From Luminiphilus sp. (GTDB lineage: Bacteria > Pseudomonadota > Gammaproteobacteria > Pseudomonadales > Halieaceae), in NCBI GenBank assembly GCA_029253705.1, contig JAQWYY010000162.1:1-49094 (forward strand): a stretch of 49,094 nucleotides of DNA. The letters run 5' to 3'. Both the position numbers and the translations under genes were made by a program. Below, piece by piece: positions 27,219 to 42,742 of this stretch (position 1 is its first letter; each line of letters starts with the position of its first letter). Under the pieces are notes generated by a model. That model was not told the DNA's origin. It searched no databases and worked only from the letters and a program-made list of their open reading frames with translations.

Positions 27219-28175
27219 ATGGCCACTAAAAAATCCAACGCCAAGACCAAAGTAGTAGCTAAAAAAGCGACTTCTAAAGCTGCTACGCCTAAAAAGCCCA
27301 GCAGCAAGAGCAAGTCAAAGAGCCCAGTGGCAAAGAAGGCTCCGGCGAAGAAGGCTCCGGCGAAGAAGGCTCCGGCAAAGAAGGCCGCCGCCAAAAAGCC
27401 CGCTGCAAAAGCTGCCGCAAAGAAAGTAGCGATTAAGACCCCAGCGAAAAAAGCCGCCGCTAAGAAAGCTCCAGCAAAAAAAGCTGCTGGTAAAAAAGTT
27501 GCCAGCGCGGCGCCAGCAAAAAAGGCTGCTGTGAAATCAGGCTCAGCGAAGGCTCCAGCAAAAAAAGCTGCTGGCAAAAAGGTCGCCGCCAGCAAGCCGG
27601 CAGCGAGCAAAGCTGCTGCCAAGAAGACACCCGCAAAAGCCGCCAAGACAAAAGCGACCGCAGTTGCCAAAAGCACTGCAGGACTAAAGCCCACCAAGAA
27701 GAAGCCCGCCAAAAAGGCGGCCAGCGCGACTAAAAATACAGCTCGGGCAGTGGGCAATGTACAAAATTTTGATGACTTCAAGCCCTATAAGCCATCCCGC
27801 GGTGAATCCTACATGAACGAGGAGCAGCTTGAGCACTTCCGCGGCCTATTACTGCATTGGCGCACAGAGCTCGTAGACGAGGTCACCCGTACTGTTTCGC
27901 ATATGAAAGATGAAGCATCGAACTTTCCGGACCCTGCAGACAGAGCCACTCAGGAAGAAGAATTTAGCCTCGAGCTCAGAACCCGCGACCGGGAACGCAA
28001 ATTGATTAAAAAAATCGATGGCACCCTCGAGCGCATCACGATAGACGATTACGGCTATTGTGATGCCTGCGGCATTGAGATCGGCGTTAAACGACTTGAA
28101 GCTCGCCCCACGGCCACTTTATGTATTGATTGTAAGACCCTATCTGAAATAAAAGAGCGCCAAGAACTGGGCTAG
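27219..28175 (+). CDS. dksA: DksA with a long histone H1-like Lys/Ala/Pro N-terminal tail
   Basis: DksA binds the RNA polymerase secondary channel and works with ppGpp in the stringent response. The 318 residues split in two. Residues about 1-185 are almost entirely Lys, Ala and Pro (KKAPA, KKAAGKKVA units), like AlgP or histone H1 tails. Residues about 186-318 are a complete DksA: FKPYKPSRGESYMNEEQLEHF, the coiled-coil tip FPDPADRATQ with the key DxxDxA, ELRTRDRERKLIKKID, and the C4 zinc finger CDAC...CIDC. E. coli DksA has 151 residues, so the tail doubles the protein and should bind DNA or RNA non-specifically. Frame and composition are continuous through the junction, with no internal stop. 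The start is an ATG with AGG 9 bases before it. gluQ follows after 70 bases, the usual dksA-gluQ pairing. Confidence 0.9.
   Translation: MATKKSNAKTKVVAKKATSKAATPKKPSSKSKSKSPVAKKAPAKKAPAKKAPAKKAAAKKPAAKAAAKKVAIKTPAKKAAAKKAPAKKAAGKKVASAAPAKKAAVKSGSAKAPAKKAAGKKVAASKPAASKAAAKKTPAKAAKTKATAVAKSTAGLKPTKKKPAKKAASATKNTARAVGNVQNFDDFKPYKPSRGESYMNEEQLEHFRGLLLHWRTELVDEVTRTVSHMKDEASNFPDPADRATQEEEFSLELRTRDRERKLIKKIDGTLERITIDDYGYCDACGIEIGVKRLEARPTATLCIDCKTLSEIKERQELG
27333..27377 (+). repeat. 15-bp tandem repeat, three copies, in the dksA tail
   Basis: Three in-frame copies of AAGAAGGCTCCGGCG (the last ending GCA) encode KKAPA three times. Further on, a longer block encoding APAKKAAGKKVA occurs twice with few base changes (about 27467-27506 and 27551-27590). 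The tail has evidently grown by internal duplication and should vary in length between strains. Confidence 0.85.
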
Positions 28176-28245: not shown

Positions 28246-29085
28246 GTGGGACGCTTTGCACCGTCCCCAACGGGCCCTATGCACGCGGGGTCTCTATTAG
28301 CGGCCGTAGGGAGTTTCCTTCACGCACGCGCTTCGGGTGGTTATTGGCACCTGAGAATCGATGACATTGATCCTCCCAGGGCTGTTTCAGGCTCAGCAGC
28401 AGGCATTCAAACGAGTCTTAAAACTCACGGCTTGCAATTCGATAGCGACCCTCAATACCAAAGTCATCACTCCAGTCGCTACGAACAAGCTTTACTGACC
28501 CTTCATGAGCAGGGTGATCTCTTTCGCTGCGTCTGCACCCGAACAATGCTCGGCCCCAGTGGTAGCTGTCAGGGTTCATGCGCAAATGAAAACCCAACTG
28601 AAATGGTGACAGGAAGTCTGCGAATTAAGGTACCCCCCAACACCGTCATTGCATTAGATGACGCTTTTTTGGGTCGGCAAAGCTGGCACCTCGGCAAGCA
28701 ACTCAGCGATTTTATTGTTAGGCGTCGGGACGGTTTGTACGCATACCAGCTTGCTGCCGCAGTAGATGATGCCAGCCCTTTTACGACACAAGTGGTGCGT
28801 GGACGAGATTTGCTTGACTCCACTCCACGACAGGTCTTTTTACAACGCAGGTTGGGCCTGTCTTCGCCAAGCTATGGGCACCTGCCCATTTTAACGGACC
28901 AATACGGCTTCAAACTTAGTAAACAGCAAGGTGCAACAGCGATAGACAATGACCAACCCACTACCAATGTAAGGGCCGCTCTTGAAATATTAGGCCAGCC
29001 CAGCCCCCCCTCAAAGCTGAGGGATTCAGCGTCTTTACTAGCTTGGAGTTTGTCCCGCTGGGACCCCTGCCGGGTACCTAGGTAA
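28246..29085 (+). CDS. gluQ: Glutamyl-Q tRNA(Asp) synthetase
   Basis: GluQ (YadB) charges the queuosine base of tRNA(Asp) with glutamate. The 279-residue protein resembles the catalytic half of glutamyl-tRNA synthetase and lacks the anticodon-binding domain. The motifs are GRFAPSPTGPMHAGSLLAAV (HIGH-like), a zinc-site cysteine cluster (CVCTRTMLGPSGSCQGSC), DFIVRRRDGLYAYQLA and FKLSKQQGA (KMSKS-like). The start is a GTG, since no ATG lies upstream in frame. The order dksA-gluQ is conserved in enterobacteria and Pseudomonas. Its last bases overlap the first GTAAC motif of the following regulatory cluster. Confidence 0.94.
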   Translation: MGRFAPSPTGPMHAGSLLAAVGSFLHARASGGYWHLRIDDIDPPRAVSGSAAGIQTSLKTHGLQFDSDPQYQSHHSSRYEQALLTLHEQGDLFRCVCTRTMLGPSGSCQGSCANENPTEMVTGSLRIKVPPNTVIALDDAFLGRQSWHLGKQLSDFIVRRRDGLYAYQLAAAVDDASPFTTQVVRGRDLLDSTPRQVFLQRRLGLSSPSYGHLPILTDQYGFKLSKQQGATAIDNDQPTTNVRAALEILGQPSPPSKLRDSASLLAWSLSRWDPCRVPR

Positions 29086-29138
29086 CAAATAATCCCATTT
29101 TGTTACTTGGTTACTTAAAGTAATGTTACCTTCGTTAC
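29082..29138. promoter_or_regulatory. Cluster of GTTAC/GTAAC motifs before the cbrB-like gene
   Basis: GTAAC at 29082 is followed by GTTAC at 29102, 29110, 29125 and 29134. GTAACAAA (29082-29089) and TTTGTTAC (29099-29106) form a perfect 8-bp inverted repeat, and TTACTTAAAGTAA (29111-29123) is another palindrome. The same GTAACA core occurs twice in the repeat upstream of the predicted small RNA (30597, 30618). This suggests that the activator controls its own gene. Confidence 0.55.
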
Positions 29139-29175: not shown

Positions 29176-30570
29176 ATGCCACTCATATTACTAGTTGATG
29201 ACGAGCCCTCTCAACGACAAGCCCTGCGTCGCGTGCTTGAGGCGAGGGACTACAAAGTCGTAGAGGCCTCCGGTGTGCAGGAAGCAGAAACCCAGCATAA
29301 CCTCGCTGAATTTGACCTAATCGTCACCGAGCTAAAGCTGGCGGGGGCTAGCGGCGCAGAACTTATCCGATCGGCAAGCCCCGTACCCGTCATTGTTATG
29401 ACAAATTACGCCAGTCTGCGCTCAGCAGTTGATTCTATGAAAGCCGGGGCTGTCGATTATTTAGCCAAGCCTTGCTCCGATGATGATTTACTCAGCGTAG
29501 TGGCTGCGGCGCTCCCCCAGCAGGGCCGGACAGGTAGTACAAACAAGCAAGGGGTCCAGCCCACCCGTCAATTTTTTCAAGGGCAATGCCCGACATTGCG
29601 TAAACTTGATGAGCAAATACAAAAAGTCGCGCGCACCGACTCAACGGTACTCATACAAGGTGAAACTGGGACAGGCAAGGAACTGACCGCCAGACGCGTA
29701 CACACCTTAAGTCGACGAAATGGCCGCCCCCTTGTGTCTCTAAACTGTGCAGCCATTCCAGAGTCCCTCATTGAATCAGAACTTTTTGGCTACGAAAAAG
29801 GTGCATTTACAGGCGCGACCAGCAATCGTATGGGACTCATTGAAGCGGCGAATGGCGGCACACTTTTTCTCGACGAAATTGGAGAGCTCCCGCAGTCTGC
29901 ACAAGCCAGATTACTTCGCTTCATTCAAGAGGGTGAAATTCGACAAATTGGTGCCGTCAGTAGCAAGACAGTGGATGTCCGACTTATCTGCGCGACCCAT
30001 CGGGATTTATCGGCACTCGCAAGCCGAAACGAGTTTCGAAGTGATCTCTTTTATAGAATAAACGTTTTGGGTCTAACAATTCCTCCCCTAAGGCAGCGAT
30101 CAGTAGATATTGCCTCGATGGCTCAGTGGTTTGCTGAGACGCTGGCGGACAAACTTGGTATCCAGCACCGCGCTCTGAGCGCAAACGCCATAAATACGGT
30201 AGCGCAACACCCCTGGCCAGGTAATGTAAGAGAGCTCGAACACGCCGTAGAGCGAGGCTTAGTCATGGCCGAAGGAGAGTTTGTGGAGGTTTCCGATATG
30301 GGCTTGACGCCCTTAACAGTAAAGGAAAACGAAGCATCACTCTCAATCGTTGTGGATTCAACAACCGGTATTGAACCTGAGGACCCGTCAGCTACCGACG
30401 GAGAGCTCTCTTTGGAAGATTACTTTATGCGCTTTGTCCTCGAACACCAGGACTCCATGAGTGAGACACAACTGGCGCAAAAACTGGGAGTTAGTCGCAA
30501 GTGCCTGTGGGAACGGCGGCAGCGTTTTGGCTTACCCCGCAGTCAGCCAAGTAAGCGCGGCCATTGTTGA
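29176..30570 (+). CDS. cbrB: CbrB-like sigma-54-dependent activator with Glu in place of the phosphoacceptor Asp
   Basis: This 464-residue NtrC-family activator has three parts. The receiver (residues 1-120) keeps the acidic pair (D8, D9), T76 and K98, but the phosphorylation site reads VTELKL with Glu52 instead of Asp; the codon is GAG at 29329. The AAA+ domain is complete: GETGTGKE near 162, GAFTGA at 209-214, which contacts sigma-54, and [11 protein letters not shown]. The C-terminal Fis-type helix-turn-helix ([20 protein letters not shown]) and [16 protein letters not shown] match Pseudomonas CbrB. The position between gluQ and pcnB is also that of CbrB. The kinase gene cbrA, which should precede it, is missing: only 90 bases separate gluQ from this start. 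Regulated targets probably include the small RNA immediately downstream. A 6-bp GC hairpin (30573-30590) follows the stop. Confidence 0.9.
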
Positions 30571-30594: not shown

Positions 30595-30630
30595 AGTAAC
30601 ACTATAGGGTATAAAAGTAACACTTTAGGG
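30595..30630 (+). promoter_or_regulatory. Direct-repeat enhancer (putative activator binding sites)
   Basis: AGTAACACTATAGGG (30595-30609) and AGTAACACTTTAGGG (30616-30630) agree at 14 of 15 positions and are spaced by 21 bp, two helical turns. They lie about 100-125 bases before the predicted start at 30724, the usual place for upstream activator sites of sigma-54 promoters. Each contains the GTAACA core also clustered before the cbrB-like gene. Confidence 0.75.
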
Positions 30631-30697
30631 GGAGGCAGCCGCACTAAAGCACAGCCAAAAAATACTAAGCCCTTGTTATTTCTGTGGTTTTATCTCT

Positions 30698-30713
30698 TGG
30701 CACGTTGTCTGCA
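30698..30713 (+). promoter_or_regulatory. Sigma-54 promoter of the CrcZ-like small RNA
   Basis: TGGCACG-TTGT-CTGCA matches the consensus TGGCACG-N4-TTGCA at all but one base. The essential GG (30699-30700) and GC (30711-30712) are exactly 10 bases apart. Transcription is expected to start near 30724. Confidence 0.82.
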
Positions 30714-30723
30714 GTTTTGTACC

Positions 30724-30814
30724 GCAGAGCCCAAATAATAATAAGCGGCCCAAAAGCAATAATAAAGCAAGAACGGACCTGGGTGGGGAAGAATACTTCC
30801 CCATGTTTCTTTTT
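30724..30814 (+). ncRNA. Predicted CrcZ-like Hfq/Crc-decoy small RNA (about 90 nt)
   Basis: The interval has no coding frame of its own and sits exactly where Pseudomonas carries crcZ, between cbrB and pcnB. It begins just after a sigma-54 promoter. It contains two A-rich (ARN)n runs, AAATAATAATAA (30733-30744) and AATAATAAA (30758-30766), of the type that binds the distal face of Hfq in complex with Crc. It ends with an intrinsic terminator. CCGC (30722) and GCGG (30745) could display the first A-rich run in a loop. Pseudomonas CrcZ is about four times longer, so this would be a minimal version. Sequence similarity outside the motifs cannot be judged here. Confidence 0.7.
30784..30814 (+). 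terminator. Intrinsic terminator of the small RNA
   Basis: TGGGGAAG (30784-30791), loop AATA, and CTTCCCCA (30796-30803) form a perfect 8-bp stem followed by TGTTTCTTTTT. An outer pair AACGGAC (30772-30778) and GTCCGTT (30815-30821) could extend the structure if transcription reads through towards pcnB. Confidence 0.88.
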
Positions 30815-30890
30815 GTCCGTTAGAAACCCAATCTCCCCCTCAGCGTCTCTGGATAGTACACTACCGCCCAAAGTGCTCAGAGGACATTCT

Positions 30891-32165
30891 GTGTCTCTAA
30901 TTCCCAAGGATATGAACAAGGTCAATCGTAAACACGTGAGTCCCGCCGCCATTCGTGTGGTGGAAAAGCTCCGTGCTGCAGATTACGAGGGCTATATCGT
31001 GGGTGGTGCTGTCAGAGACCTTATCCTCGGAAGCAAGCCGAAAGATTTTGACGTCGCGACAAATGCCACACCAGAAGAAATAAAGGGGCTTTTTCGGAGT
31101 GCACGAATTATTGGCCGACGCTTTCAGATTGTGCACGTAAGAGACGGCCGCGAGATCATTGAAGTCACAACCTATCGAGGCCCTCACCTGAACGAAGGCC
31201 CGATTAAAAGTGCCAGCAAACAGTCCGACAAAGGCCTACTGCTGCGTGACAACGTTTATGGCACTTTGGCAGAAGATGCAGCTCGACGTGATCTCACGAT
31301 AAACGCCATGTATTACAACCCTATCGACGGCTCTGTGCTAGACCAAATGGAGGGGCAAAAGGACATTAATGCTCGACTTGTCCGTGTTTTGGGTGACCCT
31401 CAAACGCGTTACCGCGAAGATCCAGTGCGAATGCTTAGAGTCGTCCGATTTGCCGCAAAACTGCAATTTGATATCGAGGCGGAGACCGAAGCGGCCATAG
31501 GCTTGTGCGGGCCGCTGTTGGCAGAAATACCACCTGCGCGGCTTTTCGATGAATTTTTAAAGCTGTTTATGGCTGGCCACGGTCGCCCCACGCTTTTGCT
31601 GCTTCTGCGGTATCAGCTGTTAGACAGCTTGTGCCCAGGCGCCGCTTTTCTTATCGAAAAAGAACCACGGTTCAAGACGCTGGTAACCCAAGCCACAGGC
31701 AATACCGATCAGAGGGTGAAAGACGGGCGCCATGTAACCCCCGCTTTTTTGCTCGCGGCACTGCTGTGGCCTGTCGTACAAACCCGCGCCGATAACTTGG
31801 TGAGAGCTGGAGAGGCGATTGCCCAAGCCATTCACAGCGCGGGACAGCAGGTCATTGCCGAAACCTGCCAAAAAATGGCGATTCCAAAGCGATTTTCTTT
31901 CCCGATCAGAGAGATTTGGGAGCTACAAACCCGCCTTGAGCGACGACAGCCTAAACGCGTCAAAGATCTCCTTGCAGATCGTAGATTTCGAGCCGCTTAC
32001 GACTTACTTCTTCTTCGCGAGGAATCGTCAGAAGCGCTGAACAGTGCCGGAAAATTCTGGGAGCAGCAACAATTGGAATATCCAGACTTGGTCGGCACCG
32101 CACCACCACGCACAGAAGATAAGCCGCCCCGTCGCCGCAGACCTAGAAGGAAAAAAGAGGATTGA
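30891..32165 (+). CDS. pcnB: Poly(A) polymerase I
   Basis: PcnB adds poly(A) tails to RNA 3' ends and promotes decay. The protein has 424 residues from the chosen GTG. The nucleotidyltransferase core reads YIVGGAVRDLILGSKPKDFDVATNATPEEI with the catalytic Asp pair in DFD. Next come the RRFQIVHVRDGREIIEVTTYRG block and DLTINAMYYNP, then YREDPVRMLRVVRFAAKL. The C-terminus is a very basic tail (RRRRPRRKK). The GTG at 30891 has AGAGGA 6 bases before it and gives the typical SLIPKDMNKVNRKHVS lead. A longer frame from 30684 would run through the small-RNA region, and the ATG at 30912 has a badly placed ribosome site. The stop overlaps the folK start by 4 bases. Confidence 0.94.
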   Translation: MSLIPKDMNKVNRKHVSPAAIRVVEKLRAADYEGYIVGGAVRDLILGSKPKDFDVATNATPEEIKGLFRSARIIGRRFQIVHVRDGREIIEVTTYRGPHLNEGPIKSASKQSDKGLLLRDNVYGTLAEDAARRDLTINAMYYNPIDGSVLDQMEGQKDINARLVRVLGDPQTRYREDPVRMLRVVRFAAKLQFDIEAETEAAIGLCGPLLAEIPPARLFDEFLKLFMAGHGRPTLLLLLRYQLLDSLCPGAAFLIEKEPRFKTLVTQATGNTDQRVKDGRHVTPAFLLAALLWPVVQTRADNLVRAGEAIAQAIHSAGQQVIAETCQKMAIPKRFSFPIREIWELQTRLERRQPKRVKDLLADRRFRAAYDLLLLREESSEALNSAGKFWEQQQLEYPDLVGTAPPRTEDKPPRRRRPRRKKED

Positions 32166-42368: not shown

Positions 42369-42638
42369 TTACCGACGAAGACCGAGACGCTTAATTAAAT
42401 TTGCATAGCGCGCCGTGTCTTTGCTTTTCAGGTAATCCAGCAGTTTCCTACGCTGGTTGACCATACGAATAAGGCCACGCCGAGAATGGTGATCTTGTGC
42501 GTGCTCTTTGAAGTGAGATTGCAACTGTTCAATGTTTGCTGTGAGCAGTGCTACTTGCACTTCTGGGGAACCCGTATCGCCTTCTGACTGCTTGTAGTCG
42601 GTGACAATTTGGGCCTTGGTGGCTGCATCTAGAGCCAT
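42369..42638 (-). CDS. rpsO: 30S ribosomal protein S15
   Basis: S15 is the 16S rRNA-binding protein needed early in 30S assembly. The 89-residue protein reads [36 protein letters not shown] and contains [33 protein letters not shown]. The start follows GGAG with a 10-base spacer. A frame extending five codons further up is rejected. In E. coli S15 represses its own mRNA through a pseudoknot at the start; I did not see a clear equivalent. Confidence 0.98.
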
Positions 42639-42742
42639 GGTTATTTTCTCCAACCTGCTTGTAAGATCAGGCTCTGTCCGTGCAGGTTTACAGACAGGTC
42701 CGTTATGAAATCGGGTCTTGCGTTGAGACTCTTGAATGGATA

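Follow-up and report, generated by a model that had tools for sequence, protein, structure and literature searches.

A short CrcZ-type small RNA predicted between cbrB and pcnB in Luminiphilus, a genus in which the sensor kinase CbrA was not detected

The small RNA CrcZ of Pseudomonas aeruginosa is 407 nt long and contains six A-rich stretches; three Hfq-shifted bands were obtained with a 151-nt fragment that carries three of the stretches (PMC4063720). The A-rich motif of amiE fills six distal pockets of Hfq (PMC5815094). Second copies of the RNA, CrcY and CrcX, are described in some Pseudomonas and Azotobacter (PMC8871633). In Pseudomonas putida, CbrB recognizes TGTTAC (F1) and GTAACA (R1 and R2) subsites that lie on one helical face at a spacing of 20-25 bp; IHF is placed between them, and the promoter is of the GG-N10-GC type (PMC6296734). 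CbrB is phosphorylated at Asp-52 (PMC8871633). The CbrAB system and the crcZ locus are said in a review and a research paper to be exclusive to the Pseudomonadaceae (PMC8871633, PMC6296734), and no description of CbrA, CbrB, or CrcZ in the Halieaceae or in Luminiphilus was found among the titles and abstract openings of the open-licence literature.

The window analysed here, the whole stretch of 49,094 nucleotides from a Luminiphilus species of the Halieaceae, comes from a genome of 2.28 Mb in 278 contigs that is 82% complete; many of the genomes compared with it were also metagenome-assembled drafts. The gene order in the window, based on a domain scan in which cbrB scored as an NtrC-type regulator only, is dksA, gluQ, cbrB, the RNA, pcnB, and folK. 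The features of the locus are as follows.

28246..29085, + strand: gluQ (NCBIfam GluQRS, 310 bits), directly 5' of cbrB
29082..29138, + strand: five GTAAC/GTTAC half-boxes, a candidate region for CbrB autoregulation, the first overlapping the end of gluQ
29176..30570, + strand: cbrB, 464 aa, an NtrC-type activator with receiver, sigma-54 AAA+, and DNA-binding parts
29329..29331, + strand: codon GAG, Glu52 of CbrB, where CbrA-bearing relatives have the phospho-acceptor Asp52
30595..30609, + strand: CbrB-type subsite R1 (GTAACA, a subsite of PMC6296734), copy 1 of the direct repeat, AGTAACACTATAGGG
30616..30630, + strand: CbrB-type subsite R2 (GTAACA), copy 2 of the direct repeat, AGTAACACTTTAGGG, 21 bp from R1
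30666..30677, + strand: TAAGCCCTTGTT, IHF-like by the IHF consensus, lying 3' of the boxes and 5' of the promoter
30698..30712, + strand: sigma-54 promoter motif (-24/-12), TGGCAC-N6-TGC, TGGCACGTTGTCTGC
30724..30815, + strand: predicted mini-CrcZ sRNA, ~92 nt, from a partial match to Rfam RF01675 and from RNA model R1; both ends predicted
30734..30745, + strand: A-rich (ARN)4 tract 1, AATAATAATAAG, read from the sequence
30752..30766, + strand: A-rich (ARN)5 tract 2, AAAAGCAATAATAAA, read from the sequence
30773..30783, + strand: conserved block ACGGACCTGGG just 5' of the terminator, no function assigned
30783..30804, + strand: intrinsic terminator hairpin, then a T-rich run to ~30814
30912..32165, + strand: pcnB (TIGR01942, 460 bits)

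A preliminary description of this DNA had placed a small RNA between a cbrB-like gene and pcnB, with a 15-bp direct repeat spaced by 21 bp upstream, and both proposals agree with the analysis. The gene on the 5' side (29176-30570) encodes an NtrC-type activator whose AAA+ domain was confirmed by Pfam (Sigma54_activat, 229.5 bits), pcnB begins at 30912, and the two copies of the repeat are identical at 14 of 15 positions with a period of 21 bp. With up to two mismatches allowed, 2 matches to the repeat were counted where 0.07 would be expected; none of 100 shuffled sequences had 2. By its sequence the repeat is best read as the R1 and R2 subsites of CbrB, and together with TGGCAC-N6-TGC it gives a promoter of the CrcZ type with two of the three subsites only. 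The sigma-54 promoter had been given as GG-N10-GC with one mismatch; the promoter stands, but its core is perfect and the mismatch in TGGCACGTTGTCTGC lies in the longer sigma-54 consensus. The sigma-54 motif alone is no rarer than chance (1 found, 0.65 expected, and one present in 45 of 100 shuffled sequences), though a chance cluster of motifs was rejected for the element as a whole because of its conservation in relatives.

The predicted 5' end of the RNA, at about 30724, is 12 nt after the GC of the -12 element, and the predicted 3' end is at about 30815. Two A-rich runs and a perfect 8-bp terminator hairpin with a T-run had also been reported, and these were found as (ARN)n tracts at 30734-30745 and 30752-30766, and as eight Watson-Crick pairs at 30783-30804 (TGGGGAAG-AATA-CTTCCCCA, followed by TGTTTCTTTTT). 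The terminator motif had 2 overlapping matches in the stretch, compared with 0.5 in shuffled sequences. The fold of the window RNA on its own is unremarkable (z -1.74). For trimmed RNAs, the z-scores were -0.9 in the window, -0.2 in another Luminiphilus, and -4.2 and -3.3 in two other Halieaceae. A stable overall fold was considered and rejected, and a long pairing of ACGGAC with GTCCGT around the terminator was rejected because it is broken in L004, L006, and L007 and only partly kept in L005.

A hairpin that holds tract 1 in its loop was evaluated by comparing its arms with permuted partners. Among 48 RNAs from outside Luminiphilus, mostly from Halieaceae, the arms scored 12.04 against 10.47 for permuted partners, and none of 5000 permutations reached the observed value, a statistic that ignores kinship. 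Among 45 Luminiphilus RNAs there was no support (9.83 against 10.14, 4754 of 5000), so we make no claim of this hairpin in the window. Applied to the 48 RNAs from outside Luminiphilus, RNAalifold found only the terminator.

The relation to CrcZ was examined with the Rfam model (RF01675), as the preliminary description had proposed. The search (cmscan) gave a match over the predicted RNA at 30721-30816 with 22.5 bits (E 7e-4 in 801 bases), covering positions 280-375 of the 398 in the model, which is its 3' part only; the gathering score of 95 bits was not reached. The window RNA is therefore a variant of CrcZ and not an Rfam CrcZ, and because of its score the gene would escape curated annotation. 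Among 390 genomes of the order, matches above the threshold were found in 19, in families f21 and f2 alone and none in the family of the window, while matches at E ≤ 0.001 were found in 72 genomes, including the window genome and seven more of its family. This order-wide search at E ≤ 0.001 gave no match in three of the Luminiphilus genomes listed (G006, G016, and G017).

Like the Rfam-grade CrcZ of L018 in family f21 (306.8 bits, in its cbrB-pcnB gap), the window RNA is encoded 3' of cbrB and 5' of pcnB. It also resembles CrcZ in having a sigma-54 promoter, GTAACA subsites for CbrB, an IHF-like site, several A-rich tracts of the (ARN)n/CA, Hfq-binding type (here of 4 and 5 triplets), and a terminator, and in being encoded by a genome that has Hfq and Crc. 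It differs in its length of ~92 nt with two A-rich tracts, against 407 nt with six (PMC4063720), in its score below the Rfam threshold, and in the absence of the F1 subsite. Both tracts are shorter than the six distal Hfq pockets that the amiE motif fills (PMC5815094). Since three tracts gave three Hfq shifts (PMC4063720), two tracts suggest about two Hfq hexamers per RNA. Judging from these sequences, the RNA sits at the crcZ position and probably works like CrcZ as a short variant.

Conservation of the promoter, A-rich runs, and terminator in relatives, a check that had been named beforehand, was borne out by the alignment of Luminiphilus gaps. RNA model R1, built from 15 Luminiphilus loci, matched 52 of the 57 Luminiphilus genomes with one match each, 37 of them outside the building set, and all 17 of those that were at least 90% complete. 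In the Halieaceae as a whole it matched 130 of 140 genomes, 77 of 78 near-complete genomes, and 26 of 28 genera; these matches are from outside the Pseudomonadaceae, and the earlier proposal that control of the CrcZ type extends to another lineage appears, from sequence comparison, to be sound. The mean pairwise identity among the 15 Luminiphilus genomes was 0.82 for the RNA, 0.88 and 0.93 for the two boxes, and 0.73 for the promoter, with lower values in the flanks (0.29-0.46 for the spacers, 0.54 for the IHF region, and 0.42 for the stretch from the RNA to pcnB). This conservation is the best evidence, within what sequences can provide, that the element is not due to chance. A pair of GTAAC boxes 19-25 bp apart was present in 49 of 50 Luminiphilus loci, the exception (G075, locus L051) being cut by a contig end. 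The TGGCA(C/T) promoter was present in all 50, loci collected with a model of which the promoter is part, and the IHF-like pattern was present at the spacing of the window in 30. The F1 subsite is missing from the window; GTTAC occurred in just 5 of the 50 Luminiphilus loci, not always at the F1 place, and GTTACC was present in all 12 cbrB-bearing gaps examined outside the genus.

An RNA of about 90 nt with two motifs had been suggested for this genome, and the predicted size and motifs hold, but they are not peculiar to the genome and are widespread in the Halieaceae. The 97 distinct RNAs were divided by the letters after the terminator into 49 of the Luminiphilus type and 48 others, which include a few from other families. 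Measured from the predicted 5' end through the terminator stem, the RNAs were 76-80 nt long in the former and 78-100 nt in the latter, and two ARN tracts were present in 48 of 49 and in 40 of 48, respectively. A strict AAYAAYAA motif was absent from 14 of the 49 Luminiphilus-type RNAs. Fifteen cbrB-pcnB gaps of other families were also analysed: ten had at least three ARN tracts, two had two tracts (L017 and L028), and three had none (L013, L014, and L021).

In Halieaceae outside Luminiphilus, the first A-rich unit was often followed at ~90-260 bp by another, which had a separate terminator. Such a second unit was found in 8 of 12 gaps (L203, L204, and L206-L211; not in L193, L195, L199, or L205), and also in L091, L099, L120, L141, and L142; in 7 of the 8 there was no recognisable sigma-54 promoter before it. 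The second units of many Halieaceae recall CrcY and CrcX, which are Hfq/Crc decoys driven by CbrB, as the window RNA is predicted to be. Unlike those, they stand in tandem in one gap and mostly have no recognisable sigma-54 promoter, and Luminiphilus has a single RNA match per genome.

The partners that a CrcZ-type RNA would need are encoded in the window genome. RpoN is present, as is Hfq, whose gene is split over two contig ends; Tyr25, which is required for distal-face binding by PAO1 Hfq (PMC4063720), is readable. The neighbours of hfq are miaA-like and hflX-like frames, named by eye. There are two proteins with the nuclease fold (PF03372), one of which is the Crc orthologue by its structure matches. 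Its best solved structures were P. aeruginosa Crc (4jg3, E 1.2e-60; 4f1r, E 5.3e-60), followed by 2myi (E 2.9e-57), which is labelled exodeoxyribonuclease III and which we take to be a Crc, and then by 2jc5 (E 1.6e-41). This protein, encoded between frames read by eye as pyrE and rph, has LQD as in Crc and SSH where Crc has SQH; enzymes of this fold carry LQE and SDH at these positions. As a query it matched 137 of 140 genomes of the family at E ≤ 1e-20, a threshold that also caught the XthA paralogue, and Crc-grade matches (E ≤ 1e-96) were found in 50 of 57 Luminiphilus genomes. At the level of sequence, the CrcZ-like interpretation in the preliminary description is therefore supported by the position in the gap, by the conserved promoter, boxes, A-rich tracts, and terminator, by the presence of RpoN, Hfq, and Crc, and by the weak match to the 3' part of the Rfam model.

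CbrA was searched for with a full-length query of 987 aa from a related family. It was found in 17 of 21 genomes of other families of the order (one genome per family), in one of them in two pieces, and in all 17, among the matches listed, it was beside cbrB, which in these genomes is a relative of the window cbrB. In loci with cbrA the identity to the window CbrB was 49-57%. The order in CbrA-bearing Halieaceae is gluQ, cbrA, cbrB; the gluQ-cbrB junction of the window is too short to hold cbrA. The best match in the window genome (82% complete) was E 5e-31, to the kinase part, and in all 37 Luminiphilus genomes searched, two of them single-contig, the best match was weaker than E 5e-35. Among the matches listed, those in Luminiphilus were to the kinase part, except for one transporter-part match in G010. 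At E ≤ 1e-100, CbrA was detected in 0 of 57 Luminiphilus genomes compared with 70 of 83 other Halieaceae. The 13 other genomes in which it was missed belong to genera g24 (3), g28 (4), g29 (1), g34 (2), g35 (1), and g44 (2), and many of them are incomplete. In g28 (L193-L196) only the C-terminal kinase part was found, matching CbrA residues 629-977, beside a CbrB with an intact receiver; to judge from the sequence, the transporter half was lost.

Genus g24 had a weak RNA match in 2 of 3 genomes (L197 5516-5623; L198 442-553, - strand), between gluQ and pcnB in a locus that has no cbrA, cbrB, or GTAACA box pair. No sigma-54-like site was seen in L197; a weak one (TGGCAAGCGCACGC) in L198 lies ~110 bp 5' of its first A-rich tract. 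This genus seems to lack Crc as well, since the sole Crc-like protein, found in 2 of 3 genomes, retains the motifs of AP endonucleases. RpoN was matched in all three genomes, as a fragment in G083; these genomes are 60-88% complete.

The absence of CbrA in Luminiphilus coincides with changes in the CbrB receiver; the preliminary description had noted neither the undetected kinase nor the changed phospho-acceptor. At position 52, 13 of the 49 receivers read had Glu, 19 had Gly, and 17 had Asp; the remaining eight of the 57 genomes were left out, three because of contig ends and five because there was no RNA match. The Glu group includes the window, HTCC2080, and L. syltensis. Other CbrB proteins had an intact EDDTK set in 29 of 30 cases, and the exception, G118 of g35, has Asn52 and is also without cbrA. 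Asp and the motif DLRLPG were kept in all 36 genome contig loci with cbrA in view. There were two counter-examples outside Luminiphilus in which Asp is kept without a detected CbrA: G140, an 89% complete genome in which the contig ends 154 bp from cbrB, and G038, which is 75% complete and shows no cbrA in the ~2 kb of contig upstream of cbrB.

In an unrooted tree of the part of CbrB after the receiver, the 49 Luminiphilus proteins formed one clade (100/98), and the Glu (93/89), Gly (100/97), and Asp (100/100) proteins were each one clade within it. Luminiphilus and the rest of the Halieaceae are not united in this tree (a weak fork, 70/91), so a single loss of CbrA in Luminiphilus is no more than likely.

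The window CbrB resembles that of the CbrAB system in being orthologous by gene position and sequence and in having DNA boxes of identical type; the differences are that no CbrA transporter-kinase was detected in the genus and that the phosphorylatable Asp52 is Glu in the clade of the window. The same substitution was made in the laboratory in NmpR, an NtrC-like protein in which D54E is an active phosphomimetic (PMC6211767). In Luminiphilus, unlike NmpR, the Glu is natural, is present in all 13 receivers read of one clade, and accompanies the absence of the kinase gene. With CbrA undetected and the phosphorylation switch replaced or altered, CbrB probably acts without phosphorylation. The CbrB of P. 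putida is described as 'barely dependent on phosphorylation' (PMC6296734), so the promoter could remain active even after CbrA was lost.

In the mechanism proposed here, CbrB on the two GTAACA boxes would act with sigma-54, and probably IHF, to start a transcript of ~92 nt that would stop at its own terminator ahead of pcnB. Through its two (ARN)n tracts the RNA would engage Hfq at the distal face and, together with Crc, draw it away from catabolic mRNAs, and this withdrawal would relieve catabolite repression. The Luminiphilus circuit would have lost its sensor, CbrA, and the CbrB of the genus has a phosphorylation switch that is altered or, in the clade of the window, replaced by the change of Asp52 to Glu. 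The level of the RNA would be set by the amount of CbrB, which is possibly autoregulated, rather than by a signal from CbrA. We infer transcription, binding of Hfq and Crc, phosphorylation-independent activity, and autoregulation from the sequences. That the gap encodes a minimal CrcZ-type sRNA for titration of Hfq and Crc, driven by a CbrB that is free of CbrA and independent of phosphorylation, is considered the probable reading, with good though not high confidence.

Among the alternatives, the one that survives best also has a CrcZ-type decoy of Hfq but keeps CbrB under signal control, by another kinase or by a ligand of the receiver, so that the sensor was swapped. Other histidine kinases exist in Luminiphilus genomes, the altered receivers are retained in open frames and not deleted, and Asp and Lys are kept at the aligned places in 17 of 49 receivers, on which another kinase could still act. 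These 17 have a degraded context of the DPGRN type and a switch Thr changed to Ala. Against a swapped sensor are the Glu and Gly at the phospho-acceptor of the other 32 receivers, since neither residue is known to accept a phosphoryl group. In the Gly clade, as far as such diverged receivers can be aligned, Lys is also replaced by Arg in 19 of 19 and Thr by Leu (15) or Ser (4). All four g28 proteins, with a kinase half at the locus, retain Asp52 and the complete receiver set. A swapped sensor is on this evidence unlikely, although it deserves the most weight after the CbrA-free reading.

It is less probable still, and by a good measure, that the RNA is mainly a base-pairing sRNA that would use the ACGGACCTGGG block to pair with mRNAs and its A-rich tracts only to hold Hfq. 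No other part of the RNA is as well conserved as this block (0.94 identity in 15 Luminiphilus genomes), and GACCTGG(A/G)(C/T)GGGGAAG, by which the gaps were found, occurs among the matches listed in cbrB-pcnB gaps of Halieaceae, Spongiibacter, Oceanicoccus, and Dasania. The block, however, abuts the terminator and may aid termination or stability, and the ARN tracts keep their number even as the sequence around them varies. The pattern search returned 100 stretches, five of which (L088, L092, L093, L105, and L107) contain no gluQ, cbrA, cbrB, or pcnB and are chance matches. One record, L096, is labelled as a Verrucomicrobiaceae MAG and contains a gluQ-cbrA-cbrB-RNA-pcnB locus; it is probably mislabelled or a mixed bin.

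A leader or attenuator of pcnB, in place of a separate RNA, is quite improbable. In the window the RNA precedes pcnB by ~100 bp on a common strand, and pcnB comes next in the loci that reach that far, but a conserved intrinsic terminator lies between, the intervening stretch is poorly conserved (0.42), and the A-rich tracts and CbrB boxes match those of crcZ. The least probable account is a decaying relic of a pathway dead after the loss of CbrA, which would fit the altered receivers of three clades. It does not fit the 50 Luminiphilus loci with an RNA match, of which 49 retain the boxes and all retain the promoter, also where Asp was lost, or the Crc-grade matches in 50 of 57 Luminiphilus genomes.

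A CbrB that acts without CbrA would make its own level important, and the region before cbrB is of interest in this respect. In the 150 bp before cbrB, at least two GTWAC boxes were present in all 42 distinct sequences without cbrA (41 from Luminiphilus and 1 from g35; mean 2.7), and five in the window, compared with ~0.24 expected by chance from the window-wide rate. Where cbrA or the kinase half is upstream (n=56), the mean was 1.4 and at least two boxes were present in 24. These counts leave out 27 rows, 23 of them cut at the start of the locus and four (L028, L097, L129, and L202) with no clear upstream gene. The multiple boxes suggest that CbrB may control its own level; because relatives with cbrA also have boxes, they are not specific to the loss of CbrA. 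A sigma-70 promoter overlapping the boxes before cbrB was looked for, and there was none on the + strand.

These data place a predicted CbrB/sigma-54/CrcZ/Hfq-Crc circuit in a second, marine family, with an RNA about one quarter of the length of CrcZ, which as a predicted natural minimal decoy of Hfq may be useful for structure-function work. The larger surprise appears to be not the RNA but the CbrA-free CbrB with an altered receiver that is predicted to drive it. The absence of the kinase is linked to a change of the phospho-acceptor in Luminiphilus and in one g35 genome, against its retention with the kinase half in g28, and this link makes the need of CbrB for phosphorylation testable. A broader proposal, to which we give somewhat less than an even chance, is that catabolite control in Luminiphilus was cut from its sensor by an apparently single loss of CbrA. 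CbrB would have been retained as a phosphorylation-independent sigma-54 activator of a minimal CrcZ present in single copy; in one clade it would be a natural phosphomimic through the Asp-to-Glu change, and in two others its receiver is altered. If so, catabolite repression would be permanently relaxed or set by the dosage of CbrB, which could suit an ocean oligotroph that lives on many dilute substrates simultaneously.

Two further features of the window were observed. The dksA gene (27219-28175, + strand) encodes a DksA with an N-terminal extension of ~185 residues rich in Lys, Ala, and Pro, followed by a normal DksA domain (186-316), and the extension matched a histone H1-like model (residues 2-96, E 1.6e-6). 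An Rfam S15 ribosomal leader at 42582-42701 (- strand) scored barely above its threshold (40.5 against 39.5 bits).
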